Of a DNA stretch of 42,594 nucleotides, positions 24,826-42,594 are shown one piece after another (position 1 is the stretch's first letter; each line of letters starts with the position of its first letter). The DNA is from a virus: positions 1 to 42,594 of IMG/VR virus record IMGVR_UViG_3300025942_000012. One strand, written 5' to 3'. A program made the position numbers and the translations under genes. The notes beneath the pieces are model-generated. The model made no database searches and was not told the origin of the DNA. It worked only from the letters and a program-made list of their open reading frames with translations.

Positions 24826-25743
24826 CTACGCCCCGGCAGTCCCGTAGATGTTCTGCCACAAGAACGCGTCCCACGCCTGCCGGAAACGCACCTTGTAGAT
24901 CCGGTTGCCCGTCCTGGCGTCCTGCATGGCAGGCGCCGCCGTGATCCCCACGCGGTCCACGCACACGAGGCCGTGCGTTTCCTTCGCCGAGGCGACGAGG
25001 TACCACGCGTCCTGATCCGTGAGGTAGGGGTTCGTGAGGATCGTGATGTTGCGCCGACGCTTGATCGGGTTCACATCGTTGTCGTTGCTGCCGGGCAGCT
25101 GCGTGCTGTTGAGCAGCCGGTCGGCCAGCATCTCCAGCTGCGGCGGCACGTAGAGGATCCAGTTCATCACGGGCGCGACCAGCTGCCCTGACTCCAGCTT
25201 CGTGTCGGTCTGCACGTCCACGATGGCCTGATTGAGCGAGTCGTAGCTGAGGTCGGCGTCCGTCGCCGGGCGGTTGCGCGCGGTGCCCCCGCCCGCCAGG
25301 ACGTGCGCCGTGTTGAACAGCGACACGCCGTCAGGCGCCAGCTGCGTGGTGAACCCCAGGTTGAACGGGATCGCCGCGTACTTCTCCTGCACGACGCGCG
25401 CGGAGAACGCGAGCCACGACGCCTGCCGCTGCAGCACGTCGAACTGGTCGTCCTCCAGGGCCGTCTCGGTGACTTCGAACCCCAGGCCGAACTCGACCGG
25501 CGTCACGTCCTTGCTGTAGCCGGGCCGGATGAGGTCGAACGCGTAGACGCTGCCCTCGGGCTTCTCGGGCACGTCGCCGAACGGCGTGACCGTCTGGAAG
25601 CGTTCGAACTTCCGCGAGGACGACTTCTTCGAATAGACATCCGGCCAGATCGCCGGAAGCTCCTTCAACTGCTTGCCGAGCAGCGCGTACACCGTTTTGT
25701 CTACGTTGTCGTAGAGCGCGGCAAAAGTTCCTCTAACCTGCAT
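24826..25743 (-). CDS. Major capsid protein (gpT-like, 305 aa)
   Basis: This protein forms the icosahedral shell. The sequence has the gpT/HK97-type order: an N-terminal helix and YSKKSSSRKFERFQTVTPFGD, then FGLGFEVTETALEDDQFDVL, an E-loop-like segment with KYAAIPFNLGFT, FNTAHVLAGGGTARNRPATD and DAWYLVASAKETHGLVCVD. About 300 residues is usual for the family. ATG at 25743 has AGGAG. The decoration-like gene and scaffold-like protein upstream and the adaptor downstream agree with the call. No fused maturation protease is visible. Confidence 0.8.
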   Translation of the reverse strand: MQVRGTFAALYDNVDKTVYALLGKQLKELPAIWPDVYSKKSSSRKFERFQTVTPFGDVPEKPEGSVYAFDLIRPGYSKDVTPVEFGLGFEVTETALEDDQFDVLQRQASWLAFSARVVQEKYAAIPFNLGFTTQLAPDGVSLFNTAHVLAGGGTARNRPATDADLSYDSLNQAIVDVQTDTKLESGQLVAPVMNWILYVPPQLEMLADRLLNSTQLPGSNDNDVNPIKRRRNITILTNPYLTDQDAWYLVASAKETHGLVCVDRVGITAAPAMQDARTGNRIYKVRFRQAWDAFLWQNIYGTAGA

Positions 25744-28401: not shown

Positions 28402-28692
28402 TCACTCCACAACAGCATCGATAGCCGTCTCAGGGACTAGCACGCACGGCCAGTCGTTCACGCGCACCTCCTCGGCGGCGAAGGCGTCGAAGATCACACG
28501 GTCGTGCAACTCTACGCTCGTGACGGCCTCGCCGGTCTGCAGCACGAGGCCCAGGGCTTGCTCGCGCACGTAGCCCGGCAGCACGAGCAGGCCGACGGCG
28601 CGCACGCGCGGCGGCAGCGCGATGAGCACCAGATCTTTCCGCAGGCGCTCGGGGAACGTCACGCTGGGCACGAGGTCGGCGCGCGCGCTCAC
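28402..28692 (-). CDS. GroES-like co-chaperonin (96 aa)
   Basis: Caps the host GroEL chamber. Residues run as in GroES: a start strand (RLRKDLVLIALPPRV) that reads like the GroES RPL(G/H)DRV(L/V)V region, the mobile-loop-like GLLVLPGYVREQALG, then VLQTG, DRVIFDAFAAEEV (roof/Gly-loop side) and the end strand CVLVPETAIDAVVE. The length is right for GroES (about 95-100). GTG at 28692 overlaps the upstream stop (TGA/GTG). No GroEL is visible, so it would work with host GroEL to fold capsid proteins, as T4 gp31 does. The family is judged by pattern. Confidence 0.7.
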   Translation of the reverse strand: MSARADLVPSVTFPERLRKDLVLIALPPRVRAVGLLVLPGYVREQALGLVLQTGEAVTSVELHDRVIFDAFAAEEVRVNDWPCVLVPETAIDAVVE

Positions 28693-28910
28693 TCCGTCCC
28701 AACCTCGCTCTCGGGATCGTTGAACACGACGGCCTTGATCGCCCACATCGCCGCCGTCTCCAGTTCGGTGATCGCGACGGCGCGCTGCCGCGACTCGGGG
28801 CACTTCTCCTCGATGGCGCGCTTCACGCGGCTGAACTCGTCGCGCAGGGCGGTGATGCGGATCAGCCCGTCGGCACTGGGCTTGTGGTAGGCGAAGGGCT
28901 TGTCGATCAC
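28689..28910 (-). CDS. Acb2/Tad1 hairpin-like anti-defence protein (73 aa)
   Basis: Seen: FAYHKPSADGLIRITALRDE, then RAIEEKCPESRQRAVAITEL and ETAAMWAIKAVVF. This matches the phage family with F-x-YH-x-P, then P-x-SRE-x-x-x-ALT-x-LE-A-x-MW-A (Acb2/Tad1 hairpin domain). Its Acb2 members bind cyclic nucleotides and blunt CBASS or Thoeris signalling. Length about 73 is typical. It overlaps genes on both sides by 4 nt and sits in the virion operon between portal and GroES-like genes. Activity on a given second messenger cannot be told from sequence. Confidence 0.7.
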   Translation of the reverse strand: MIDKPFAYHKPSADGLIRITALRDEFSRVKRAIEEKCPESRQRAVAITELETAAMWAIKAVVFNDPESEVGTE

Positions 28911-29251
28911 TGTGAAAGCTCCACGTTAGGGCCGAGCGACGGGCGCGGTGTCTCACTCGGCGTTGCCGCCGCGAGCTTGCGCTTCTCGTCCTCCAGCAGT
29001 TGCGTCGGCAGGTTGATCAAGCGGCCCGCCGCGACGCGGGCGGCGACCAGGGCGATGGTCTTCGGCCCGACCTCGGCCACCGGCTCGGTGCGCGCGAGGT
29101 GCTCGATCTGGTCGGTGAAGGTGCGCTGGCCGTAGAGCTTGTTCGCTTCCGCGCAGACGATGGCCCAGCCGGTGGAGGCGAGCAGCGTCTCCAGATCCGC
29201 CACGCGCTGCTGCAACGCATCGAGGTCCACCTCGGGCCGCGCGCGTCTCAC
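28907..29251 (-). CDS. Small protein beside the portal gene, unknown (114 aa)
   Basis: Helical throughout (DALQQRVADLETLLASTGWA, then a FTDQIEHLARTEP stretch and ALVAARVAAGRLINLPTQLL). GTG at 29251 overlaps the portal stop by 4 nt. No membrane segment, one cysteine only. It resembles small phage structural-region proteins with coiled-coil potential but has no recognised family. Confidence 0.6.
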   Translation of the reverse strand: MRRARPEVDLDALQQRVADLETLLASTGWAIVCAEANKLYGQRTFTDQIEHLARTEPVAEVGPKTIALVAARVAAGRLINLPTQLLEDEKRKLAAATPSETPRPSLGPNVELSQ

Positions 29252-31449
29252 ATCGGCCTCTGGTTCATGCTCGTCATCATGTTGGCGAGCAGGTCAGGCG
29301 ACACGTTCGGCATCCCCGGCGGCGGCGCGGGCGGCGGCTCGGGTGGGCCTTGTGGCGGCGGGGGCGGGCCTCCAGCCGGGGGGCCGGGTGGCCCTGGCGG
29401 CGGTCCACCGCCTGCGGGAGGAGGGCCACCCGGGGGCGGCGGGGCACCAGCACCCGGCCCGCCCGGCGGCGGTGCCCCTGGCTGGCCTGGAGGCGCGCCA
29501 GGAGGCGCAGGCGGCTGCTGCGCGGCCATCTGCGCGGCCTGCGCCTGCTGCTCCTGCCAGCCTTTCAACGAGCGCATCAGCTGCCCCTTGTTCGGCGAGT
29601 CGTACAAGCTCAGCGCCTGTTCGAACAGCGGGATGATCACGTCGGGGCTGGCGAAGACCTGCTGCAGCGACGGGTTCATCTGCGCGAACCCGCCCATGAC
29701 CTGCATGAACCCGTTGTAGTTGCTCCGCTGCTTCGACTTGTCGGCGCTCTCCACCGAGCCGTGCGGCTTGCCGTGGAACGTGCCCGCCAGGGCTTCGCCC
29801 GTGATGCCGCCCTCGGCGAGGTCAATCGAGCGGAACTCCAGCTGCCGCATGAAGCGCTCGCTGGGTTCCAGCGGCTCTTCGTCCGCAGCCCGGCGCCACA
29901 ACTCGTGGCGGATCTTAAACAGGTCTTCCATCGTCTCTTGAATGTTGCGAACCTGCTCTTCGATCCTGACAAAGCTCTGCTCGGTGACCATCTGCACTTC
30001 GCCCAGCGTGCGCGACTCCTGGGGGGCACTGCCGAGCGTCACGTCGTTCAATCCCGAGAGGCGCTCGGCGGCGTCGATGATGCCCTGCTCGCGCCCGGCC
30101 ATCGACCCGGGCACGTCAGGGATCACGACCGGCTGCACGTCGTTCATGTCCTGCACGGTGATGACGGCGCCGACGCCCCACGGCTCTTCGTCCATGTCCC
30201 AGCCGCTGTTCCGCAGCCGCTTGATGGGCGCGTTGTTCACGAGGTTGCTGCGGTCGGCGACGGCGTTGCGCGTGCCCATATGCTCTTCGCCGATGCTCGC
30301 GAGCTTATCGACGTGGCTGTCGCCGTAGACGTTCAGCGGGTTCGGCGCCGGGCGGAACAGCAGGTAGCGCGGCAGGCCGATGTCGTCCAGCTGGATGCGG
30401 AGGATCTGCTTGTGAATCGCGGACAGCGTGATGAGGTACCACTCCTCGCAGCCGTCCTTGTCGAGGTCGAGCAGGACGTGCAGTTCCCAGAGTTCTTTCT
30501 CGATGGTGGTCGGCGTGGTCTGCGGCGCCACGTCGATGCCTGACGCGTTGACGCTCTGCGGCAGTTCGGTGCGCGTACGATCGCTGGTCGCGGCCAGCTG
30601 ATCGACGGCGTCCTTGTCGTAGATGCCGGTCTTCGCGCGGTACTGCAGTTCCTTCAGCCGCCGCCAGAAGCGCTTCGCATAGCACCAGACCTCCGAGTCG
30701 TCCTGGGCGTGCGCGGGCAGCATCAGGAAGTCGCGCAGGCTGATGTTCCGGTAGCTCGGGCCGCGCCTGACCGGCACGTATTCATCGACCGCCGTGTGCA
30801 ACGCGCCCTGCGTGGCCGGGTCGTCACTCTCGACGTAGCCGCCCGTGTCCTCGTTGACCATCGGCTGGAACGACGCGTCCTCGCCGAGCGCGAAGCCGCC
30901 GTCCTCGTTCATCTGTGGGCGCAGCTGCCGCATCGACCGGCGCTTGATCATGTCGGCGCGCTCGCTGCACTCCAGCACGCCAGTGCCCTCGACGAGCGCC
31001 AGCTGCAGGGTGCGCTGCAGCCAGCCCTGGAGGCGCTCCTCTTCCAGCTTCCACTGGTGGAACTCTTCGACCATCGCCGCGCGCTCAGCGGCACGCCCCC
31101 AGCCATCGACCACCCACACCGGCTCGACAAACACGGTCTTGACGAAGCGTGCGCGCATCGCGTCGATCTTCTCGGCGACGATCCATGTCGAGAGGTCGGC
31201 GGCACCAGGGAAGGGCAGGTCGCGCACGTTGCGCTTGCCCTGCTTGTAGAGCCAGTGCCAGTAGTCGAGATCGCCGCCGGGCGCGATGACCGGCCCACGC
31301 GCCTGGAGCGCGCGGTCGATCTCTTCGGCGAGCATCTGGACGAGTTCGGTGTGTTGCTCCGTGTTGAGCTTTACGTCGAACGCGGTCTTCTCACGCTTCG
31401 GTGGCCCCGGCGGGCGACCGATGGTCTTCCCCGGCAGGTATGGCGGCAT
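29248..31449 (-). CDS. Portal protein (733 aa)
   Basis: Forms the dodecameric ring at the head vertex through which DNA enters and leaves. The order of features fits podoviral portals: an N-terminal LNTEQHTELVQMLAEEIDRALQ region, WHWLYKQGKRNVRDLPFPGAAD, a central ISLRDFLMLPAHAQDDSEVW, ITVQDMNDVQPVVIPDVPGS and a stem/wing helical part (EQSFVRIEEQVRNIQETMEDLF). The C-terminal 120 residues are a Pro/Gly-rich low-complexity tail with poly-PG runs. ATG at 31449; other starts upstream would overlap the neighbour. Size (P22-type about 725) agrees. Confidence 0.85.
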   Translation of the reverse strand: MPPYLPGKTIGRPPGPPKREKTAFDVKLNTEQHTELVQMLAEEIDRALQARGPVIAPGGDLDYWHWLYKQGKRNVRDLPFPGAADLSTWIVAEKIDAMRARFVKTVFVEPVWVVDGWGRAAERAAMVEEFHQWKLEEERLQGWLQRTLQLALVEGTGVLECSERADMIKRRSMRQLRPQMNEDGGFALGEDASFQPMVNEDTGGYVESDDPATQGALHTAVDEYVPVRRGPSYRNISLRDFLMLPAHAQDDSEVWCYAKRFWRRLKELQYRAKTGIYDKDAVDQLAATSDRTRTELPQSVNASGIDVAPQTTPTTIEKELWELHVLLDLDKDGCEEWYLITLSAIHKQILRIQLDDIGLPRYLLFRPAPNPLNVYGDSHVDKLASIGEEHMGTRNAVADRSNLVNNAPIKRLRNSGWDMDEEPWGVGAVITVQDMNDVQPVVIPDVPGSMAGREQGIIDAAERLSGLNDVTLGSAPQESRTLGEVQMVTEQSFVRIEEQVRNIQETMEDLFKIRHELWRRAADEEPLEPSERFMRQLEFRSIDLAEGGITGEALAGTFHGKPHGSVESADKSKQRSNYNGFMQVMGGFAQMNPSLQQVFASPDVIIPLFEQALSLYDSPNKGQLMRSLKGWQEQQAQAAQMAAQQPPAPPGAPPGQPGAPPPGGPGAGAPPPPGGPPPAGGGPPPGPPGPPAGGPPPPPQGPPEPPPAPPPGMPNVSPDLLANMMTSMNQRPM

Positions 31450-31460
31450 GAGCCGAGAGT

Positions 31461-31787
31461 CTACCGCTTTTTGCCGCCGCTCTTCGGCTTCGGCTTCGGA
31501 CGCGGTTGGCTCAGGGCGGGGAAGGTGCCAGTGGTTTGCATCGGGGTGGCCTCGCAGCGTTCGCAGGACTCGACGTAGTGGTGAAGCACGCCGAGGATAC
31601 ACCCTTCGGCCTTCCAGGCGCGATGGCACCGCCGACACTCGACCCAGGTGTCGTAATCGGCAGCACCGTGCGCGGCGCGGATGTCGTCAGCCGTGTAGGG
31701 GAGGGTCGGGCACGATGATCGGTTGGACGCGCGTCGTGCCCGAAGGGACGCATGACCCACAGTGACTCCCCGGCCCTTGTAGGTCAC
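31461..31787 (-). CDS. Small zinc-binding protein before the portal (up to 108 aa)
   Basis: Core: PYTADDIRAAHGAADYDTWV, ECRRCHRAWKAEGC, GVLHHYVESCERC, then a Lys/Pro-rich tail. Four Cys and several His make one zinc site. The start is uncertain: GTG at 31787 or 31760 both overlap the previous small gene, and no clear ribosome-binding site marks either. It ends 11 nt before portal. The DYDTW-x-EC-x-x-C pattern recurs in small phage proteins but has no known function to me. Confidence 0.55.
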   Translation of the reverse strand: MTYKGRGVTVGHASLRARRASNRSSCPTLPYTADDIRAAHGAADYDTWVECRRCHRAWKAEGCILGVLHHYVESCERCEATPMQTTGTFPALSQPRPKPKPKSGGKKR

Positions 31788-31905
31788 GCGCCCACACCGT
31801 GCGCGACAGCACTGACGCCAGCACGAACGGAGTACCCAAGAGCACCGCCCGCCGCCCGCAGATGCAGACGGCGAGGTAGTGCCCGCACTTCGGACAGCGC
31901 AGCAT
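31687..31905 (-). CDS. Small Cys-rich protein following the PEP-CTERM gene (72 aa)
   Basis: Starts at the TGATG overlap with the PEP-CTERM gene and reads LRCPKCGHYLAVCICGRRA, then a hydrophobic piece (VLLGTPFVLASVLSRTVW) and a Gly/Ser/Pro end. CPKC plus CIC may bind zinc. It overlaps the next gene's uncertain 5' part by about 100 nt, so either that gene starts later or the two overlap. Function unknown. Confidence 0.5.
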   Translation of the reverse strand: MLRCPKCGHYLAVCICGRRAVLLGTPFVLASVLSRTVWARDLQGPGSHCGSCVPSGTTRVQPIIVPDPPLHG

Positions 31906-32573
31906 CAGCGCCGCGCGACGCGCTTCCGCAGCTTGCCCGCGAAGCCGACAAGGCCGAGGCCCAGCAGCGTGAGGCTGGCCGGTTCCGGCACGGGCTGCGC
32001 CAGCGCCGCATCCGCCACACCCGAGTAGCTCGACGTGAAGGACGCGATGGTCGGGTTCGGGCCGCTGCTGTCAATGTGCAGCGGCAGGTTGATGTTCGCC
32101 AGCGACAGCTGGAAGCTCTCGGGGTTGACGAGATCGCCGAGGTCACTGAACAGCACCAGCGGCGGCGACTGCGGGAAGCTGTTGGTCTGCAGCGTGGCCC
32201 CGGTCGAGCCGTTGCCGCCGAACTCCAGCCCCGCGCCGAACGTGCCGCTGAGGTAGTTGATCGTGCCCGCCTGATTCGTCAGCGTGAAGCTGCCCGCGTA
32301 GCGTTGCGTCACCACCGCGCCCAGCACGAGCGAGGCGTCGTTGGTGCTGGTCGCCGTGAACGTGAACAGCGCGTCGGCGTCGAGCGCGCCCGCGAAGATC
32401 TGCGTGATGTTCACGTCGGACGAGGTCGAGAGCGTGGTCGTCCCGTCGCCGTTGTCGGTCGCCGTGAACTGGTTCGGCGTGATGTTCCCGAAGCTCACGA
32501 TGGTGTCCGCACGGGCGAGGGGAGCGACGACGAGGGCGGCGACGAAGGCGAGCGTGGCGACGAGCAGCTTCAT
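31905..32573 (-). CDS. Secreted PEP-CTERM protein (222 aa)
   Basis: A secretory signal peptide (MKLLVATLAFVAALVV, cleavage after ARA near residue 22) and a C-terminal sorting signal: VPEPASLTLLGLGLVGFAGK then RKRVARR (about residues 195-222). This is the tripartite PEP motif, hydrophobic span and basic tail recognised by exosortase/archaeosortase systems in Gram-negative bacteria. The middle is Thr/Ser/Asn/Gly-rich and beta-like (VNPESFQLSLANINLPLHID), without an enzyme motif. ATG at 32573 follows AGGAGA. It lies between the terminase and portal genes. It would need a host exosortase; no exosortase is encoded here. Confidence 0.85.
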   Translation of the reverse strand: MKLLVATLAFVAALVVAPLARADTIVSFGNITPNQFTATDNGDGTTTLSTSSDVNITQIFAGALDADALFTFTATSTNDASLVLGAVVTQRYAGSFTLTNQAGTINYLSGTFGAGLEFGGNGSTGATLQTNSFPQSPPLVLFSDLGDLVNPESFQLSLANINLPLHIDSSGPNPTIASFTSSYSGVADAALAQPVPEPASLTLLGLGLVGFAGKLRKRVARR

Positions 32574-32616
32574 GGGGCGGTTCTCCTTGACGGGGTCAGT
32601 CGGGTGACGGCTGAGC

Positions 32617-33057
32617 TTACTTCTTTTTGGGCTGCGCGACGGCGTCATCTTCGACCGGCACGAGCACCCAGCCGTAGCGCACCGAGTACTTCAGTTCGAA
32701 GAGGCGCTCGTCGTCCACCACCGGGTCGGGCGGCAGCACGATAGGCAGCGAGATCGTCGGCGGCGGCGCGGTGTCGGGCAGCGTGTTGTCGGGCGTCACG
32801 GGCGGCGGCGTCGGCACCGGGCCGGTGGTCGGGTAGTTCCCGCTGCCGGGCAGACCCTGGTCAGGACGCGGCCCGCCGAGGTGCCCAGGCAACCACGGGT
32901 GCCCGCCGCCACCAGGGTGGCCGTAGCCGGGATCGACCGGCGGGCGCACGCCCCAGCCGGGATCGACCCCGCCACCACCGCCGGGTCGCCCGAAGCCGGG
33001 ATCGACCGGGTGGCGTCCATCATCGAGGAACGTGATCAACGCGAGCTTGCTTTCCAT
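32617..33057 (-). CDS. Pro/Gly-rich virion-region protein with short repeats (146 aa)
   Basis: N terminus ESKLALITFLDDGRHPVDPG, then GFG/GWG/GYG with PGGGG blocks: the unit P-x-DPG-(F/W/Y)-G recurs three times in about 45 residues. A Pro-rich middle (PTPPPVTPDNTLPDTAPPP) and a C-terminal beta piece (LFELKYSVRYGWVLVPVE) follow. ATG at 33057 has AAGGAG. Short proteins of this look occur beside terminase genes in related phages; they are of unknown function, perhaps head- or surface-exposed. Confidence 0.6.
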   Translation of the reverse strand: MESKLALITFLDDGRHPVDPGFGRPGGGGGVDPGWGVRPPVDPGYGHPGGGGHPWLPGHLGGPRPDQGLPGSGNYPTTGPVPTPPPVTPDNTLPDTAPPPTISLPIVLPPDPVVDDERLFELKYSVRYGWVLVPVEDDAVAQPKKK

Positions 33058-33268: not shown

Positions 33269-34783
33269 TCAGCGGCGGCGCGGCAACCCACCGAAGCGCG
33301 TGCCTGCGCGCACCGCGCGCCGCACGTCGGCCTCGTCGTAGTCGTGCTGCATCTGCTTGCGCGCTTTCGCCTGCTCCTTCTCGTGATCCACCTTCGTCGG
33401 CTGCGCCGGGCCATAGGCCAGCACCACGTACTCGATGCAGTTCATCGCGTGGTCGTAGAACCCGTCCTTGCGCGCGCGCCGCGTGTTCGGCGACACGGCG
33501 TGCGCGATAGAGCGCTCGTCCCAGACGTAGCCCGCCTCCAGCGCGTCGATGAAGTGCGTGCTGTCGGTGACGCCCTCCAGCGTGTTGATCTTCCAGCGGT
33601 CAGGGTCCACGGTGAACGCCGGGCCTTGCCGCGTCAGCCGCTGCATATAGCCCGCGAGGTGCTGGATGCAGCGGTCGCGCGCGTCGGGATGGTTGGCGCC
33701 GCCGATGGTGTAGAGCGCCACGCCGTACTCGCGCAGCACGTCTGCCGCGCTGACGCGCGTGCCCTGCGAGTTGTTCTGATCGCCCGCCGGGTCGCCCGTG
33801 CTCCACACCTCCATGGGCAGCAGGCGCTCGCCTGCCGCGTTCGGCTCGCCCCCAAACCACATCGTCCGCAGCGCCACCGCCATCGGCGCGAAGTCCTCGA
33901 TGAACTGGTCGCTGCCCAGGATGCCCCCCAGGACGCGTAGCTCGCCCCAGGGCAGGAGTTGTGCCCACACCACCGCCGGATGGGAGTGCCCGAAGTCCCA
34001 GCCCTCCAGCAGCGGCACCGACGGGTTGAGCGACAGCCGCTGACAGTGCAGCCGGGCCTGGAAGACGCCCGCGTAGACAGGCTTGCCGATGATGGGCAGG
34101 CCGCGCTTGCCCTCGATGAACCGCCGCCGCAGCGCGTGGCCCTCGGGGTGCGCCGCCTCAAGCTCGGCGATGTAGCGGTCGCCGACGTTGTGCCGGTTGT
34201 CGTAGACGGAGGTCCGCAGGTAGAGGTACCCGGCCTTCGTGTTGCGCTCGGGGAAGTCCTGCGCGATCCAGTGCGTGAGGCCCGGCGGGTTCGGCGTCAG
34301 CAGCACCTGATGCGGGTAGCCCGGCTGCGACAGCCGCGCGGGCACGTAGGCCCGATACACGTCCTCGGGCACCTCCTCGGGCTGGTCGATGCCGAGGATC
34401 GCGAGCGTGAGGCCCGCGAGCTTGCCGTAGCGGCTCGTCTCCTCGGCGCCCTTCAGCGCGCGCAGGTAGACGCGCGACCCTTTGCCGACCACCTCGTCGT
34501 ACTCCTCGTCGGCGTGCCACTGCAGCTGCAGGCCGTGCGTGCGGCACCAGTCGCGCCACCGAGGCTTCAGCTGCGCGTCGAGCGCATCCTGCGTCCAGCG
34601 GCAGAGCGCGCACGCGATGCCGGGGAAGTCCACGCAGTAGGCCGCGACCTTCGCGACCAGCGGCGTCGTCTTGCCCGCCCTGACCGCGCCCTCCAGATCG
34701 ACGTAGGGCCACGCTTCGGCGTCGGCCTGGAGGAACGCCGACTGCACGGGGTTCCAGTAGTCGCGGACCTCGTGCGCCGTCAT
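33269..34783 (-). CDS. Terminase large subunit (504 aa)
   Basis: The DNA-packaging motor that also cuts the concatemer. ATPase part: LEGAVRAGKTT (residues 30-40) is the Walker A-like loop, TLAILGIDQPEE (126-137) the Walker B region with D133, and LLTPNPPGLTHW (161-172) the coupling motif. The nuclease part begins EGWDFGHSHPAVVW (260-273) with D263, then STGDPAGDQNN (a second acidic site) and KDGFYDHAMN near 455. ATG at 34783 is in an ATGA overlap with the small upstream gene. About 500 residues is standard. Confidence 0.9.
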   Translation of the reverse strand: MTAHEVRDYWNPVQSAFLQADAEAWPYVDLEGAVRAGKTTPLVAKVAAYCVDFPGIACALCRWTQDALDAQLKPRWRDWCRTHGLQLQWHADEEYDEVVGKGSRVYLRALKGAEETSRYGKLAGLTLAILGIDQPEEVPEDVYRAYVPARLSQPGYPHQVLLTPNPPGLTHWIAQDFPERNTKAGYLYLRTSVYDNRHNVGDRYIAELEAAHPEGHALRRRFIEGKRGLPIIGKPVYAGVFQARLHCQRLSLNPSVPLLEGWDFGHSHPAVVWAQLLPWGELRVLGGILGSDQFIEDFAPMAVALRTMWFGGEPNAAGERLLPMEVWSTGDPAGDQNNSQGTRVSAADVLREYGVALYTIGGANHPDARDRCIQHLAGYMQRLTRQGPAFTVDPDRWKINTLEGVTDSTHFIDALEAGYVWDERSIAHAVSPNTRRARKDGFYDHAMNCIEYVVLAYGPAQPTKVDHEKEQAKARKQMQHDYDEADVRRAVRAGTRFGGLPRRR

Positions 34784-35806: not shown

Positions 35807-36179
35807 CGAACAGGTTGCGCGCAGGCAGCGGCTGCGCGGCGGGCACGGCTTTGCCCTCGGCCCAGGCACGCACGCGGTTCATGTCCGCACTCGCCGGGGT
35901 GCCACGCGAGCAGCTACGACGATGCGGGCAGGTTCCCGAGTAGTAGAACGGCGGCAGGTAGTGCGTGCGCCGGTCGAACGCGGCGTCCTTCGCGCGCTCG
36001 CGAATCGGGTGGACGCCGAACCACCCGCACGTCGGGCAGTGCGTCTCGATGGCGAGCGCTTCGGCCTTCAGCGCGGGCGGTAGCTCGGTGAAGTCCACAC
36101 CGCGCGACTCTGTCCGCAGTGGTCGCTTCACGTAGCCGTGCAGCCGCTCACTCAACGGGTGGTTGAGGAAGTGCTGCAT
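35787..36179 (-). CDS. Zinc-binding small protein (130 aa)
   Basis: Contains HCPTCGWFGVHPIRERAKD, then FYYSGTCPHRRSCSRGT: a CxxC and a later CPH-x-x-x-C give a zinc site. The rest is helical (LNHPLSERLHGYVKRPL). ATG at 36179 is a TGATG overlap with the PAPS-reductase-like gene. A longer start at 36203 would overlap more and lacks support. Function unknown. Confidence 0.6.
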   Translation of the reverse strand: MQHFLNHPLSERLHGYVKRPLRTESRGVDFTELPPALKAEALAIETHCPTCGWFGVHPIRERAKDAAFDRRTHYLPPFYYSGTCPHRRSCSRGTPASADMNRVRAWAEGKAVPAAQPLPARNLFDDNDDA

Positions 36180-37048
36180 CAGACGCCGCACATCCCTTCG
36201 CACTCGTTGTTGAACAGGTTCGGCTGGCCGCGCTCCTCCGCGCTCGACAGGTCCACCTCCGCGAGCGGCACCAGCGAGCGATGCACGAACATCTGCCCCT
36301 GCAACGGCGTCTTCCTGGCCGCGTCGCGCAGCCCCGTGCGGATCGCTTCATCGACGCGCACGGCTTCAGCCCAGCCCTCGGGATCGTTGTCCTTGAGATC
36401 GCGGAACTGCCGGTCGCTGCGATAGGGGCAGAACGTGCAAGCGCTCTTCGGCGGCAGCGGATACCCGCGTGCCTCCAGCCAGTCGAGACACGCCACGCGC
36501 GTGAACCCCAGGTCGATCAGCGGGTAGAGGTTCGCGATGGTCATGGGGAACCGGCTGTCGCGCATCCGCGAGATCTCGTCCATCGAGATGCCCATCCACA
36601 TCTCGACGGCGCGGCGCTGCGGCCACCGGCTGCGCGGGCCGATGCCGAGCAGCGTGCGAAGGTGGCGGTAGATGGGGTCCACCTTGTAGTCGCCTGTGCA
36701 TTGCCGCTTCACCATGCCCTTGTTGCCGGTGCGATCGTCGCGGATGTAGAACGGGGCACGCGCGAAGCTGCCGCGCGTGGGCCGCGTCGCGCTGTCAGGC
36801 GACGCAGCGGCGAAGATCTCCTCGCCCAGGCTGAGGCCCGGGGCTTTCACGATGTCCACGGGGAACGGCAAGCGCCCCGCCTCCATCAGCCACGCGAGGT
36901 GCGCGTAGACGTGGTGCGGTTCGCTGCCGGTGTCGGCGAAGATGGCGCGGTCGAGCGGGGGCAGGTCGCCCGTCGCGCTCATCAGCGCGAGGGTCGTGCT
37001 CTGCACGCCTGCCCCGAGGGACAGCACGCGCAGCGGTCGGTCTTGCAT
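36179..37048 (-). CDS. PAPS reductase / adenine-nucleotide alpha-hydrolase family protein (289 aa)
   Basis: Seen: LSLGAGVQSTTLALMSATGD (residues 9-28, a PP-loop-like nucleotide-binding site with the variant GAGVQST), RAIFADTGSEPHHV, MGISMDEISRMRDS, SACTFCPYRSDRQF and the end NNECEGMCGV. These are the marks of phage phosphoadenosine-phosphosulfate-reductase-family proteins, with Cys-rich sites that may bind Fe-S or Zn. The classical function is sulfur or nucleotide activation; in phages the substrate is mostly unknown. ATG at 37048 follows ACTGGAG/GGAGG. Confidence 0.75.
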   Translation of the reverse strand: MQDRPLRVLSLGAGVQSTTLALMSATGDLPPLDRAIFADTGSEPHHVYAHLAWLMEAGRLPFPVDIVKAPGLSLGEEIFAAASPDSATRPTRGSFARAPFYIRDDRTGNKGMVKRQCTGDYKVDPIYRHLRTLLGIGPRSRWPQRRAVEMWMGISMDEISRMRDSRFPMTIANLYPLIDLGFTRVACLDWLEARGYPLPPKSACTFCPYRSDRQFRDLKDNDPEGWAEAVRVDEAIRTGLRDAARKTPLQGQMFVHRSLVPLAEVDLSSAEERGQPNLFNNECEGMCGV

Positions 37049-37083
37049 GGGAGCCTCCAGTGTGCCTGCTGAGCTTACCACGG

Positions 37084-37521
37084 TCACCACCGCACGCGGA
37101 AGCCGACCCGGGTGGGGCTGGTGACGATCTGCACGCGCTGCCCGCCGTAGGCCATCAGGACGCCGCCGCCCGCGCTCGCGATGATGCCGAACACCAGCAG
37201 CCCCGTGTTCGTCTTGCAGTCGGCGACGGGCTGACGCGTGCGCCCGGGGTCGGTGCCGCACGGCGCGAGGTCGCGGCCCAGCCGGGTGTTCGGATCCTCC
37301 AGCGACAGGTCGCTCTCGCGCGCGAAGGTCTGCGCCGCGATGACGGCGAGCGCCCCCCCGGCGACGATGGCGGTGCCGGTCCAGAACAGCGGCGGCGAGT
37401 GCATCGCCGTCGTGTAGCTGCGCGGGGCCGCGTACTGCCGCGCGGCGCTCTCGGCGAGTGGACCCGCTAACAATCGGGTCGGCAGCGCGAACAGCAGCAG
37501 CAGCAGCGTCACCAGCTTCAT
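37084..37521 (-). CDS. Membrane protein with signal/anchor and two further spans (145 aa)
   Basis: Starts MKLVTLLLLLFALPTRLLAG, a signal peptide or anchor, then PPLFWTGTAIVAGGALAVIAA (about 50-70) and LLVFGIIASAGGGVLMAYGG (about 112-130) as hydrophobic spans, with CGTDPGRTRQPVADCKT (a possible disulfide loop in the periplasm) between. ATG at 37521 has GGAGAAG. It is the partner of the lipoprotein gene with a 4-nt overlap. An envelope function (exclusion, lysis or surface) is possible; nothing assigns it. Confidence 0.6.
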   Translation of the reverse strand: MKLVTLLLLLFALPTRLLAGPLAESAARQYAAPRSYTTAMHSPPLFWTGTAIVAGGALAVIAAQTFARESDLSLEDPNTRLGRDLAPCGTDPGRTRQPVADCKTNTGLLVFGIIASAGGGVLMAYGGQRVQIVTSPTRVGFRVRW

Positions 37522-37940: not shown

Positions 37941-38383
37941 GTCCTCAGCGCCGCATCGAGCAGCGCGAGCACGGTATCACGGCCTGCGTCGTTCATCAGC
38001 GCGCGTCGGGCGTCCCCGAGCGCCACGCGCAGCCGGTGCTCCTCGGTGGCGCCCTCAGAGTCGTAGCCCGCGCCGGGCGTCGGCGGCGTGCCCTCGACGG
38101 TGACCGCCCCTTCGCCGGGCAGCAGGATCTGCAGCACGTCGGGCACGCGCGGGTCGTGCTTCACGCGCAGCGGCACGAGCGCGGCCATCGCCAGCGAGGT
38201 GAACGGCAGGGCGAGCGCTTCGGTGCCGGTGCTCTCCATCAGCACGATGAGCGCACGCCGCAGCAGCAGTAGGCCGGTCACCAGATCGAGCGCATCGCCC
38301 GTCAGCGTGTTGCGAAGGTCGCGGCTATCGTCGTCAGGCGGCGACACGAGGTCGAACGGCTCGGTGAGGTGCGCGGTGGTCAT
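37937..38383 (-). CDS. Unknown protein (148 aa)
   Basis: A Leu/Ala-rich N-terminal half (ALDLVTGLLLLRRALIVLME, then SLAMAALVPLRVKHDPRVPD), then an acidic, Gly-rich turn and an Arg-rich helical end (ALGDARRALMNDAGRDTV). Its hydrophobic helices are not clear membrane spans. Overlaps neighbours on both sides by 4 nt. Not recognised. Confidence 0.55.
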   Translation of the reverse strand: MTTAHLTEPFDLVSPPDDDSRDLRNTLTGDALDLVTGLLLLRRALIVLMESTGTEALALPFTSLAMAALVPLRVKHDPRVPDVLQILLPGEGAVTVEGTPPTPGAGYDSEGATEEHRLRVALGDARRALMNDAGRDTVLALLDAALRT

Positions 38384-38814
38384 CGGTCCTCCACGGTCAG
38401 CAGCAGTCCTTCGGGGTCATCGAACGGCGCGTGCGGCACGAGGCGCTTCGCTTCGCTCACGAACGGCGACGCCTCGCTTGCGTCCCGCGCCAGCGAGCGC
38501 CGCGCGTCGATCTGCACGACCTGCTTGTCATCGAGGTAGGCGATCTTCGTGAGCGCGTCGAGCACGCCGCGCACCAACTTGTCGAGGTCGGGCGCATCGC
38601 CCTGGCGCGTAGGGCGCACGAGAAAGTGCATCCGCACAATCACGTCGGCGGGGGTCGGCTCGTCGGCGCCCATCGCGCTCCGCACCACCCAGCCGATGCT
38701 CTTGCGCCACGCGCGCAGCTTCACGTTGTCGTGCGTCATGCGGCCTCGTCCGAGCGATCTCATGCTGCCCTGACCGACGGCGCGCCCGGCGACGAACACG
38801 CTGAAGCCCCCCAC
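38380..38814 (-). CDS. RusA-like Holliday-junction resolvase (144 aa)
   Basis: Cuts four-way junctions in recombination intermediates. The order fits RusA: GFSVFVAGRAVGQGSMRSLG (residues 3-22), KLRAWRKSIGWVV, and the acidic core APDLDKLVRGVLDALTKIAY (74-93) with LDDKQVVQIDARRSLA (94-109). D76, D78, D86, D95 and D96 are the candidate catalytic or metal residues. I took GTG at 38814; earlier start codons would overlap the previous gene. About 120-145 residues is usual. It fits with ERF and the PD-(D/E)XK nuclease as a recombination set. Confidence 0.85.
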   Translation of the reverse strand: MGGFSVFVAGRAVGQGSMRSLGRGRMTHDNVKLRAWRKSIGWVVRSAMGADEPTPADVIVRMHFLVRPTRQGDAPDLDKLVRGVLDALTKIAYLDDKQVVQIDARRSLARDASEASPFVSEAKRLVPHAPFDDPEGLLLTVEDR

Positions 38815-38815
38815 C

Positions 38816-39055
38816 CTAGCCCTCCCCCCGCTCGCCAGCCTCGCGCACGCGTAGGACGCTCGCCTCGGCGGCACCCGACAGTCGTCGCCCGAGCAGGCCG
38901 GGGTGCGGCCAGTGGCGCACGCGTCGCATCGGGATCTGCACGCGGTGCGCGTCGAGGTAGAGCACCACGTCGTCGCCCTTGACGCGCGCGATGCGGGCTT
39001 CGCGCCACCGATGCGCGTGCCAGAAGCAGACGAGGTCACCGCGCTTGGGTTTCAC
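38816..39055 (-). CDS. Small SH3/Tudor-like barrel protein (79 aa)
   Basis: PKRGDLVCFWHAHRWREARI, then VKGDDVVLYLDAHRVQIPMR: the GD-LV-x-F-W-x-x-x-W and GD-V-x-L strands give a small five-strand barrel look common in phage replication-region proteins. GTG at 39055 overlaps the upstream stop (GTGA). Function unknown; a DNA- or protein-contact role is inferred. Confidence 0.55.
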   Translation of the reverse strand: MKPKRGDLVCFWHAHRWREARIARVKGDDVVLYLDAHRVQIPMRRVRHWPHPGLLGRRLSGAAEASVLRVREAGERGEG

Positions 39056-39537
39056 TTCGCGTCTCGCGCGTAGATGGGCTGATGGTTGGCCTGGAAGTAC
39101 GGGTTGGTGGCGCGACAGGGGCAGCGCATCAGCGGACGAGGATACTCCAGTTCGTTTTTGACGTAGGGGTGGAGCGGGCACTCGTGGGTCATGGTGAGCA
39201 CGGCGAGGTCGCAGCCGCAGTCAGGGAGCCAGCCGGTGTCCTCGCAGTGCGGGCAGTTGTGGACCGTCTCGATGGTGCCGTCCGCGTGCAGCACCTCGCG
39301 CGCTTCGGGGAACACGGCGGGGCGGTTGCGCTGCACGGCCTCCAGCCACTCGACGGGCTTGGGGAAGAACTTGTGGCCGCGCATGAGGGTGGCGGCAGCG
39401 GCGTCAAGCTCGCTGAGGGGCACCTGTTCCAGGGCGAGGTAGTAGCTCTCGATGACCTCCAGCTTGAGGGTCTTGTTGAACGTGAAGGCGAGACGCTTGC
39501 AGAGCGCGGCGAAGTCCTGGCGGTCAGTGGGTGTCAT
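39052..39537 (-). CDS. Zinc-containing replisome-loader-like protein (161 aa)
   Basis: N-terminal helices (FAALCKRLAFTFNKTLKLEV, then YYLALEQVPLSELDAAAATL) with KFFPKPVEWLEAV are the layout of short phage proteins that pair with a replisome organiser (helicase loader-type). The second half has CPHCEDTGWLPDCGC, HECPLHPY and MRCPCRATN, so two zinc sites. ATG at 39537 is 13 nt inside the previous gene's end. Loader function is inferred from order and the N-terminal pattern. Confidence 0.6.
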   Translation of the reverse strand: MTPTDRQDFAALCKRLAFTFNKTLKLEVIESYYLALEQVPLSELDAAAATLMRGHKFFPKPVEWLEAVQRNRPAVFPEAREVLHADGTIETVHNCPHCEDTGWLPDCGCDLAVLTMTHECPLHPYVKNELEYPRPLMRCPCRATNPYFQANHQPIYARDAK

Positions 39538-40345
39538 GTTTGTGTGTCTCCAGCCACGCAGCGATGGCGCGGTCGTTCTCGTCGGGTTGGTCGGTGAGTT
39601 GGGGCAGCGCCATCACGAAGTAGCCGAGCGTGACGGCTTTGACGTTGAGCGCTGCGGCCTGCTCGGGCGTGAGGGCCATGAAGCGGGCGAGTCGGGCGTG
39701 CAGGTCGGCGTCGTCGGCGATGAGCGTGACCGCATCGAGCAGCTTGGGCAGGTCGTGGGCTTTGGGCTGCAGCGGCAGGGTGAGCTTGCGCGTGTCGCGC
39801 ATCAGCGTGCGCCAGCGGTCCCAGAGCGCTTGGCCCCGGCCATCGACTTCGGGGTCGTGGTCCTCGCGCGCGCGCGCTCTTTGCACACGGTCTTCCGTGT
39901 GCTCTGATCTCTTGTTCTGATCTCTGAGATCTGATCTCGCATCGTTTGCCATAGGCTGAGCCTTTGGCTGAGCCTTTGGCTGAGGGATGGCTGAGCCATC
40001 GCTCTGCCATCGTCCTGCCGCCCCACGCTTCCCGGCCTCCGAGCGCTCGGCGCGGAACGCCAGCAGCTGCGCGCGCTCGCGCTCCAGGCGCTTCTGCGTG
40101 TAGCCGTCCTCGCTCCATGTGAAGCACGGCGACAGCTGCGGCCACACGCGGCGTTCGAAGATGGGGAACGACAGCCCGGCCATGCGCGCGAGCACGCGCG
40201 GGTTGAGCGGCAGCGAGCCGTCGCGCCAGCAGAGGCAGAGCAGCTGGATGTAGGCACCGCGTGCCTCAGCGGTCATCGCCTGGACGTTGGAGTCGGCGAG
40301 CCAGTCGCCGGGGTAGAACTTAAACCAGGGGTTCGGGTCGGGCAT
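39524..40345 (-). CDS. DUF1376-type phage replication protein (273 aa)
   Basis: N-terminal domain: PWFKFYPGDWLADSNVQAMT, then RGAYIQLLCLCWRDGSLPLN and MAGLSFPIFERRVWPQL. This is the DUF1376 pattern (FYxxDWL, RGxYxxLL, GSLP), a winged-helix-like DNA-binding replisome-organiser domain. A repeat-rich linker (about residues 115-160, PKAQPKAQPM) carries origin-like DNA repeats (see the 39883-39990 entry). The C-terminal part is helical. ATG at 40345 (GTG at 40351 is an alternative). Likely starts phage DNA replication by recruiting host helicase and polymerase. Confidence 0.75.
   Translation of the reverse strand: MPDPNPWFKFYPGDWLADSNVQAMTAEARGAYIQLLCLCWRDGSLPLNPRVLARMAGLSFPIFERRVWPQLSPCFTWSEDGYTQKRLERERAQLLAFRAERSEAGKRGAAGRWQSDGSAIPQPKAQPKAQPMANDARSDLRDQNKRSEHTEDRVQRARAREDHDPEVDGRGQALWDRWRTLMRDTRKLTLPLQPKAHDLPKLLDAVTLIADDADLHARLARFMALTPEQAAALNVKAVTLGYFVMALPQLTDQPDENDRAIAAWLETHKHDTH
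39883..39990. repeat. Repeat array inside the replication gene; candidate replication origin
   Basis: Three kinds of repeat sit in about 110 bp: a perfect hairpin GCACACGG/CCGTGTGC (39883-39902, 4-nt loop); three TGATCTC copies (39905-39911, 39918-39924, 39932-39938) with a GATCTC-T-GAGATC palindrome (39919-39931); and a 12-bp tandem repeat GGCTGAGCCTTT (39954-39965, 39966-39977, partial third copy to 39984). The stretch is less GC-rich than the rest. It falls in the linker of the DUF1376-type protein, the place where lambdoid origins lie in gene O. Confidence 0.55.
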
Positions 40346-40487
40346 CGTCACACTCTAGGGGAATTGCCGAGGTGACGACGAGGCGGGCGACCGGCTAGAC
40401 TGTGGTCGCACTGCGTCTCGTGCGTGCCCTCAGCACGACACGAACGGGGTCGGGGGCGGTGTCCCAGCCGCGCCCGACCCGCACATC
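40346..40487 (-). terminator. Gap with strong hairpin after the coiled-coil gene; possible attenuator
   Basis: An inverted repeat with 8 bp (GGGTCGGG/CCCGACCC), one mismatch and 4 bp inside, 8-nt loop, at 40447-40480, lies 7 nt beyond the stop of 40488-41186 on the minus strand. There is no clear U-run, so it may be a weak terminator or a processing site. The rest of the gap should contain the promoter of the replication genes; no sigma70-like site is convincing. Confidence 0.4.
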
Positions 40488-41186
40488 CTACCGCCGCCGC
40501 GTCGAGCGCACAACCGGAGCTTTCGCGACGCGCGTCACGCCGGGGATGTTGAAGCCCTCCCCCAGCTGCGTCACCAACGCCTGCAGCCCTTTCAGATTCG
40601 GCTCCACCAGCATCGAGGTCATGGCCGGGTGCTCGACCGCGAAGCGCAGCAGCAGCCCCAGGTCGGTCACCTGGGGTTCGAAGCTGGCCGTCACCGCCAC
40701 GCCTGCCGTGGGGCGCTCGGGCGTCACGACCACCGGGGCCATGAACTCCTCGACCGGCGCGCGCTCGATCTCGCGTGCGGCCTCCTCGTAGCCCTTCGCA
40801 CGCTGGGCCTCGGCATCCGCCGCGCGGTTGCGCTCGGCCTCGCGCAGGGCCGCAGCCTCGGCCTCGCGCCGGGCCTGCTCCTCACGCCAGCGGCGCGCCA
40901 CCTCGTAGCTGCCGATGGCGCGCGTCAGGGCGTCGAGCGCGATCTTGGCGGGCGTCAGCCGCGCGTTCAATTCGGCGAGCAGCCCCTTGTGGACGGTGTG
41001 CGCGGCGGCGATGTGCGGACGGTAGCCGCTCTCGATCTCGGCGATGAGCGCCTTAACATCCTCGCGGTAGGCCACCGCCAGTTCGCACGTCTCGGGACCG
41101 CTGACCGCGAAGGTCGCCACCTCGGCGAGGTCCACCGCCACGGTCGGGGTAAAGGGCACCAGGGTTGTTTCAGTCGTCATCGCCAT
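40488..41186 (-). CDS. Coiled-coil protein of the recombination cluster (232 aa)
   Basis: A central coiled coil is clear (about residues 90-145: ARRWREEQARREAEAAALRE, then RNRAADAEAQRAKGYEEAAR), preceded by a helical SYR/HIAAAHTVHKGLLAELNA region and followed by a beta strand region (VAVTASFEPQVTDLGLLLRF) with a C-terminal GFNIPGVTRV piece. It is the layout of phage coil proteins that neighbour ERF/RecT genes (DUF1351-like), possibly tying recombination to exonuclease activity. ATG at 41186 follows ACTGGAG (41191-41197). Confidence 0.6.
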   Translation of the reverse strand: MAMTTETTLVPFTPTVAVDLAEVATFAVSGPETCELAVAYREDVKALIAEIESGYRPHIAAAHTVHKGLLAELNARLTPAKIALDALTRAIGSYEVARRWREEQARREAEAAALREAERNRAADAEAQRAKGYEEAAREIERAPVEEFMAPVVVTPERPTAGVAVTASFEPQVTDLGLLLRFAVEHPAMTSMLVEPNLKGLQALVTQLGEGFNIPGVTRVAKAPVVRSTRRR

Positions 41187-41990: not shown

Positions 41991-42594
41991 CTACATCCCC
42001 TCCGTCACGTCCACCGGCAACGGGTTAGCGTCGGCGTGCCGCTCGTAGAGCGCGTCGTCCTCGGCGAACGTCACGCCGTGGTCCTCGGGGTGCTCCAAGG
42101 CGCTCGTGACCTTCACGAACTCGGCGCCCTGGCGGATCTGGCTGGTCGAGGTGTAGCCCCAGAGCGCGAAGATGAGCGACTTGACCTGCCGCTCGGTGAC
42201 CTGCTGTTCCTTCGCGATCTTGAAGAGCAGGCCACGGTCGGCGGCGCTGATCGTGCCGGGCAGCGACAGCGGCGCGTGGCGGTCCACCACCGGCTTGGCC
42301 TCGGGCCTCGGCTTCGTCACCTTCGCGGGCGGCAGTTCGTTGGCGGGCACCGGGTTCGGGACCGCCACCGGGCGCGCGGTCGTCGGCTCAGCCTTCGGCG
42401 CGCGCGGCTCCTGCTCCTGACGCGGACGCTGCGGCCTGGGCGTCGGCGTGCTCGCGCTCGACGCATCGTCGTCTTCTGCCGCGCACGCCGTCAGCGCGAG
42501 CAGCCCGTAGCGACGCAAGTAGCTCGTGAGACTGCCGACTTTCTGCGGCGCCACCTCACCCGACGGCAACTTCAACGTCGTCGCGATCCACTCG
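41991..42594 (-). CDS. ERF-family recombinase, C-terminal part (continues from base 1)
   Basis: Open to the last base of the window. The frame reads EWIATTLKLPSGEVAPQKVG, then SLTSYLRRYGLLALTACAAE and DDD: the ERF core (EW, PQ-x-VGSx-T/SYx-RRYxLxAxx-A-x-DD). A Pro/Arg/Ala-rich linker follows (about 65 residues) and a helical C-terminal domain (ADRGLLFKIAKEQQVTERQV, then QIRQGAEFVKV). The N-terminal half is at 1-267. A join without gap breaks the frame, so a short sequence (length 2 modulo 3, perhaps 20-45 nt) is missing between base 1 and the last base of the window. Confidence 0.85.
   Translation of the reverse strand, partial: EWIATTLKLPSGEVAPQKVGSLTSYLRRYGLLALTACAAEDDDASSASTPTPRPQRPRQEQEPRAPKAEPTTARPVAVPNPVPANELPPAKVTKPRPEAKPVVDRHAPLSLPGTISAADRGLLFKIAKEQQVTERQVKSLIFALWGYTSTSQIRQGAEFVKVTSALEHPEDHGVTFAEDDALYERHADANPLPVDVTEGM

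Follow-up and report, generated by a model that had tools for sequence, protein, structure and literature searches.

In the bacterial PEP-CTERM/EpsH (exosortase) route described by Haft et al. (2006; PMC1569441), proteins are exported through Sec, anchored by a helix in the C-terminal tail and processed by exosortase, with the PEP motif located on the inner membrane's outer face. Host PEP-CTERM proteins act at the interface between surface and polysaccharide (PMC1569441, PMC9850573, PMC12188702), and work in Aquincola and Nostoc indicated that they contribute to keeping polysaccharide attached to the cell or are found outside the cell (PMC9850573, PMC12188702). Phage-encoded exosortase substrates are described neither in Haft et al. 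(PMC1569441) nor in the open-access literature that we searched. Phages can place proteins of their own in the envelope of the infected cell, as phage T5 does with the receptor-blocking lipoprotein Llp (PMC4728585).

The window analyzed here is the whole stretch of 42,594 nucleotides of IMG/VR virus record IMGVR_UViG_3300025942_000012. On its minus strand, an ORF from ATG to TGA (31905–32573), supported by profile matches and homologues, encodes a PEP-CTERM protein of 222 residues that we assigned to family A; a Shine–Dalgarno sequence, AAGGAG (32583–32588, minus strand), lies 9 nt before the ATG. Residues 1–22 (32508–32573, minus strand) form a predicted Sec signal peptide with the cleavage site ARA/DT. 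Signal peptides were judged from eye and hydropathy only, and in the window protein this revealed K2, a hydrophobic stretch at residues 3–19 with a 15-residue Kyte–Doolittle mean of up to 2.87, and A-R-A before D23; the structural model places a helix at residues 2–15. The body is composed of 13% Thr, 12% Ser, approximately 10% each of Ala, Leu and Gly, and 8% Asn, with a single Lys/Arg and no Cys. The C-terminal tail, VPEPASLTLLGLGLVGFAGKLRKRVARR, contains the PEP-CTERM domain (31923–31994, minus strand) and, after it, the final basic residues before the stop codon, and matched PF07589 with 30.6 bits (E = 3.1e-7; gathering score 20.7) and TIGR02595 with 20.6 bits (curated cut-off 16), whereas the PEP-CTERM profile search in genome mode gave 0 matches in 14 control genomes. 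The initial annotation, which had read a signal peptide, a Thr/Ser/Asn/Gly-rich body and a PEP-CTERM tail from these letters, was therefore right in both coordinates and description, and the profile check that it proposed was significant. The protein thus carries the PEP motif, hydrophobic helix and basic end of the class and, by inspection and hydropathy, its signal peptide. Like the bacterial members (TIGR02595/PF07589), it combines these elements with a body of no known homology; unlike them, it is encoded by a phage, in a putative packaging operon, and belongs to a cassette shared among phages.

Homologues align with the window protein over its whole length, and the tail is kept by 15/15 homologues found through body or terminase sequence (alignment A3). 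Together with dN/dS values below 1, this indicated that the ORF is coding. Tail invariance in a second alignment (A4) was set aside as evidence because many of its members were found through the tail pattern, and the count of signal-like starts is biased for a similar reason. An AlphaFold model built with 29 family members showed a confident all-beta body (mean pLDDT 89) and a C-terminal helix at residues 199–221. Searching the PDB with two models (pLDDT 79 and 89) returned no structure with E ≤ 0.001, the first model (pLDDT 79) had no match among viral structures, and a sequence search of the PDB found none. The all-beta body has no matching solved structure, and the fold therefore offers no functional lead.

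The flocculation protein PepA (NF033554) shares the sorting tail and a similar overall layout with the window protein, which scored 24.3 bits against this family, far below the cut-off of 80. As the body alone gave no match, PepA membership was rejected. In the host, the PEP-CTERM protein PepA increased bound exopolysaccharide, decreased soluble exopolysaccharide and restored flocs (PMC9850573). A comparable binding or aggregating role, in which the phage protein would link exopolysaccharide and cells to one another and thereby free progeny among fresh hosts or keep the infected cell in the floc, is a possible but unlikely alternative. It is consistent with the T/S/G/N-rich body, predicted to be exported, and with the sub-threshold, whole-length similarity of some family members to floc_PepA (42.5 bits in L024; cut-off 80). 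However, bodies alone gave no floc_PepA match, indicating that this similarity rests mainly on the tail, and no carbohydrate-binding fold was recognized in the structure search.

The gene shares its strand with the flanking large terminase subunit gene upstream (33269–34783, minus strand; TIGR01547, E = 8e-9, below its curated cut-off) and the SU10-type portal gene downstream (29248–31638, minus strand; PF23899, 66.9 bits; GTG start uncertain), which confirmed its location in the terminase–portal block. The major capsid protein was found by profile search at 24826–25743 (minus strand). Directly upstream lies a Gly/Pro-rich ORF of 146 aa (32617–33057, minus strand; probable start MESKLALITF) that is conserved in relatives, and the 43-nt gap between this ORF and the PEP-CTERM gene contains the Shine–Dalgarno site. 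A scan for sigma-70-like sites found no such promoter in the block, and no minus-strand terminator was found there. Since there is little room between terminase and portal for a promoter of its own, the gene is probably read within the packaging operon, and from this layout we infer late expression together with the packaging genes. In L034 and L036, the family A gene lies outside the terminase–portal block, suggesting that late timing may not be general.

The position in the head/packaging block and the all-beta product would also suit a virion component, such as a decoration protein, whose export-like ends arose by chance. This is very unlikely: the signal peptide and the complete sorting tail are present in 15/15 homologues found through body or terminase, and the gene is repeatedly lost from otherwise near-identical phages and stands outside the structural block in other phages.

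Elsewhere in the window, an Acb2/Tad1 hairpin family protein (28689–28910, minus strand; PF24729, 51.8 bits, cut-off 27) is likely an anti-CBASS nucleotide sponge, and a similar gene occurs in L034. A phosphoadenosine phosphosulfate reductase-like protein (phrog_424, E = 1.7e-38) is encoded at 36179–37261 (minus strand), and a DNA module with RusA, DUF1376/primosomal, exonuclease and ERF-like genes occupies 38380–39039, 39524–40351, 40488–41186 and 41991–42575 (minus strand). No integrase was detected among the window ORFs scanned.

Terminases 83–100% identical to that of the window were found in 30 IMG/VR loci, and presence of the PEP-CTERM gene was judged where the contig covers the terminase–portal interval. 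Terminase and portal flank the gene in L002, L003, L004, L005, L009, L010, L012, L020, L024, L027 and L033, and it comes after the terminase on two contigs that stop short of the portal, L008 and L011; it is absent from L013–L017, L019, L021–L023, L025 and L029. Moreover, phages with approximately 70% identical terminases (L053, L091, L163, L166 and others) carry the gene beside the terminase or portal. Of 27 records, 21 scored above the PF07589 cut-off, and four of these have two such genes. Recurrence at the same locus in related phages, which the initial annotation had named as support, was thus observed in separate IMG/VR assemblies.

A degenerate tail-only pattern run over all viral contigs detected at least 119 stretches. 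Clustering of bodies without signal and tail sorted the 105 distinct proteins among those collected into 24 clusters; the family of the window protein comprises 53 of these bodies, about half, although searches with the window protein itself contributed some of the 53. Among 104 large neighbouring ORFs compared with PHROG, matches were obtained to terminase (phrog_2, 12; phrog_979, 8) and portal families (phrog_156, 11; phrog_1216, 7), counts that overlap because several families can match one ORF. These neighbours indicated that the collected PEP-CTERM genes are largely phage genes rather than bacterial stretches misfiled as viral. The suggested search of phage genomes for PEP-CTERM tails therefore succeeded, both in these viral stretches and in the cultured phage Tunturi_5, but the gene is less unusual for a phage than first supposed, as it belongs to a large family across unrelated phages.

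The bacterial distribution of family A was covered by a two-pattern scan of 84,980 bacterial and archaeal genomes, which returned no confirmed relative of the window protein. In all, two scans of genome contigs for host clues, the two-pattern scan among them, gave no confirmed relative of the PEP-CTERM protein or the terminase of the window. INPHARED searched by tblastn with family A queries yielded no full-length match, and a plasmid search gave a Roseomonas match at tail level only. PEP-CTERM proteins are a bacterial class and the ultimate origin of the gene is presumably bacterial, as would suit contamination, a chimera or a chance capture without function. The probability of this explanation is negligible, given the same junctions in separate assemblies, a phage-wide family with terminase and portal neighbours and dN/dS below 1, no confirmed relative in the two-pattern genome scan, and two PEP-CTERM proteins in cultured Tunturi_5. 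Contamination and chimerism were rejected on the separate assemblies and the synteny.

Comparison of near-identical phages revealed how the gene comes and goes. L019 has no PEP-CTERM gene, although its terminase DNA is 99.5% identical to that of L020, which carries one. Relative to L024, L019 retains the gene's ribosome-binding region (TAAGGTGCTCCCCA) but not the gene, and this region runs straight into GACGTGGGCGCAG, the sequence that follows the cassette in L024, with a short shared CCA at the junction; read from the two sequences, this junction is a clean deletion. In L015, the gene is deleted with a different right end, and the simplest reading of these alignments is at least two losses among near-identical phages. 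In the body tree, moreover, genes of the terminase clade are interspersed with those of otherwise unrelated phages: a constraint keeping the clade together was rejected (p-AU 9e-47), and L012 (70% GC) pairs with L051 (56% GC) at 100/99. Family A is common to phages of 43–71% GC, and clear sharing between the window and L034 (43% GC) is limited to the PEP-CTERM gene and the Acb2-like gene. Nei–Gojobori dN/dS of the PEP-CTERM gene ranged from 0.11 to 0.85 and was below 1 in every estimable pair, compared with 0.09–0.42 for the terminase, the ratios being rough owing to strong GC bias. These values suggested that the protein is maintained but changes faster than the terminase. Presence and absence in near-identical phages (L019 vs. 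L020 and L024; L015) is the pattern of a moron or accessory cargo gene, and the comparison indicated that the PEP-CTERM gene is such cargo, repeatedly lost and exchanged within the clade, rather than a structural gene.

The initial annotation had missed a small linked gene downstream and the second PEP-CTERM genes of several phages. The downstream partner (72 aa; 31687–31905, minus strand) shares a single base with the PEP-CTERM gene, the final A of that gene's TGA being the first base of the partner's ATG. Its product shows a CxxC...CxC start, RR followed by a hydrophobic stretch and RTVWA, and the sequence GSHCGSCVPSG. When every ORF of every locus was searched irrespective of position, relatives were found directly behind PEP-CTERM genes, including those of L035, L036, L041, L042 and L051, and with the partner profile 16/16 distinct strong matches fell between −8 and +126 nt of a PEP-CTERM gene end. 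In the shared core, [RK]R precedes a segment of moderate hydrophobicity, which is followed by R[TSRA][VL]xA and a GSxCGSxxPSG-like end; the core resembles either a signal anchor or a signal of the twin-arginine type in which a basic residue precedes the cleavage site. The CxxC...CxC start is fused in front of the partner only in the window's clade. A stand-alone MLRCPKCKRYLPVCTC ORF resembling this start was observed in L051 (3828–4076, minus strand). No Pfam or NCBIfam family matched the partner over cut-off, and a viral scan with an L042-based partner-like query, its end edited toward the PSGTTR motif of the relatives, returned only already known contigs. Family members in L010, L034, L103, L125 and others have no recognizable partner.

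L012 and L036, phages otherwise unrelated, both show the order PEP-A, partner, PEP-B; their PEP-B proteins share 74% identity across 186 residues and have a run of prolines before the tail; in L051, PEP-A and the partner are followed by a third kind of PEP-CTERM protein. These second PEP-CTERM proteins lie directly behind the partner (L012, 13234–13968; L036, 6442–7155; L051, 10816–11598). Linkage of the partner to family A in otherwise unrelated phages is new here. We tentatively propose that PEP-A, the signal-anchor or Tat-like partner and sometimes a second PEP-CTERM gene could constitute a mobile two- or three-gene cassette for surface conversion in phages whose hosts differ widely. Such a cassette would be a phage system in its own right and not a set of individually captured genes, with the partner as a dedicated helper that links the phage-made proteins to the exosortase or the envelope of the host; this proposal is doubtful at present.

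PEP-CTERM proteins were also found in a cultured phage. An L141 query against INPHARED matched, through the tail only, Tunturiibacter phage Tunturi_5 (PP885688), a jumbo phage of an acidobacterium, Tunturiibacter (PMC11924767). Its gp97 and gp179, both annotated as hypothetical, exceeded the PEP-CTERM cut-off with 30.3 and 28.3 bits, while Tunturi_2, 3 and 4 have zero such proteins; the text of the Tunturi_5 paper does not mention PEP-CTERM (PMC11924767). Like the window gene, gp97 and gp179 encode phage proteins with a signal peptide and a PEP-CTERM tail, but they have different bodies and lie in a DNA-metabolism region. In Tunturi_4 (PP885687), a glycosyltransferase gene lies between terminase and portal (L179, 1567–2565), suggesting that other phages, too, may use the terminase–portal interval as an accessory slot.

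Exosortase in the same genome, which accompanies the bacterial class, was not found in the phage records examined: PF09721 gave 0/27 matches in the records of this phage and 26 related ones and 0/18 in others, many of these records being fragments. Hence the tag can work only through host machinery, in agreement with the host-supplied exosortase assumed at the outset. We consider it likely that the gene is mobile accessory cargo that displays a host-sorted protein on the surface of the infected cell, and phages of this kind probably alter that surface via the host's own exosortase machinery. In the proposed route, the gene would be transcribed as part of the packaging operon late in infection, and its product exported through Sec and held in the inner membrane by the C-terminal helix. 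Host exosortase would then cut the protein and pass the product to the outer surface or the exopolysaccharide layer; both processing and surface location are predicted from the sorting signals. Surface remodelling, occupation of the sorting pathway and assistance with release, as suggested in the initial annotation, are candidate benefits at this stage. Two observations weigh against this explanation, namely that the gene is dispensable in some lineages and that the all-beta fold has no solved relative. Moreover, late expression would leave little time before lysis for a surface effect.

Alternatively, the phage protein could be a decoy that floods host exosortase and starves host PEP-CTERM proteins of sorting. 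The tail kept in 15/15 homologues found through body or terminase, and the two different PEP-CTERM bodies in several phages, would fit a decoy. However, a decoy would need signal and tail only, whereas the body folds confidently and is conserved across very different GC contents (dN/dS 0.11 for the pairs L012–L051 and L034–L035), which makes this explanation improbable.

If the protein is instead displayed at the surface, its most likely use would be to make the infected cell's surface and debris interact differently with virions and neighbouring cells. By analogy, it may work like T5 Llp without belonging to that type. Both would be phage-encoded envelope proteins of the infected cell, a working analogy in which the location of the window protein is itself predicted. 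Unlike Llp, the window protein has no lipobox (ARA/DT site, no Cys in the mature body), its gene is not beside a receptor-binding gene, and its sorting route is different. That the gene changes fast, exchanges alleles and is repeatedly lost is consistent with a contest at the surface, for example the blocking of adsorption. Interference with adsorption, taken alone, is still a guess that we consider somewhat improbable, and a role in binding polysaccharide or in aggregation comes close to it in probability.

Exosortase substrates have so far been treated as bacterial matter, and the gene of this soil phage is genuine phage cargo of a widespread kind for which no description was found in the open-access literature. 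If phages routinely use the exosortase route, infection of exopolysaccharide-producing soil and water bacteria would include a phage-made change of coat, and the PEP-CTERM tag would help to read from sequence which hosts such phages require. Tunturi_5 on Tunturiibacter, a cultured phage–host pair with two such genes, makes this question testable now.
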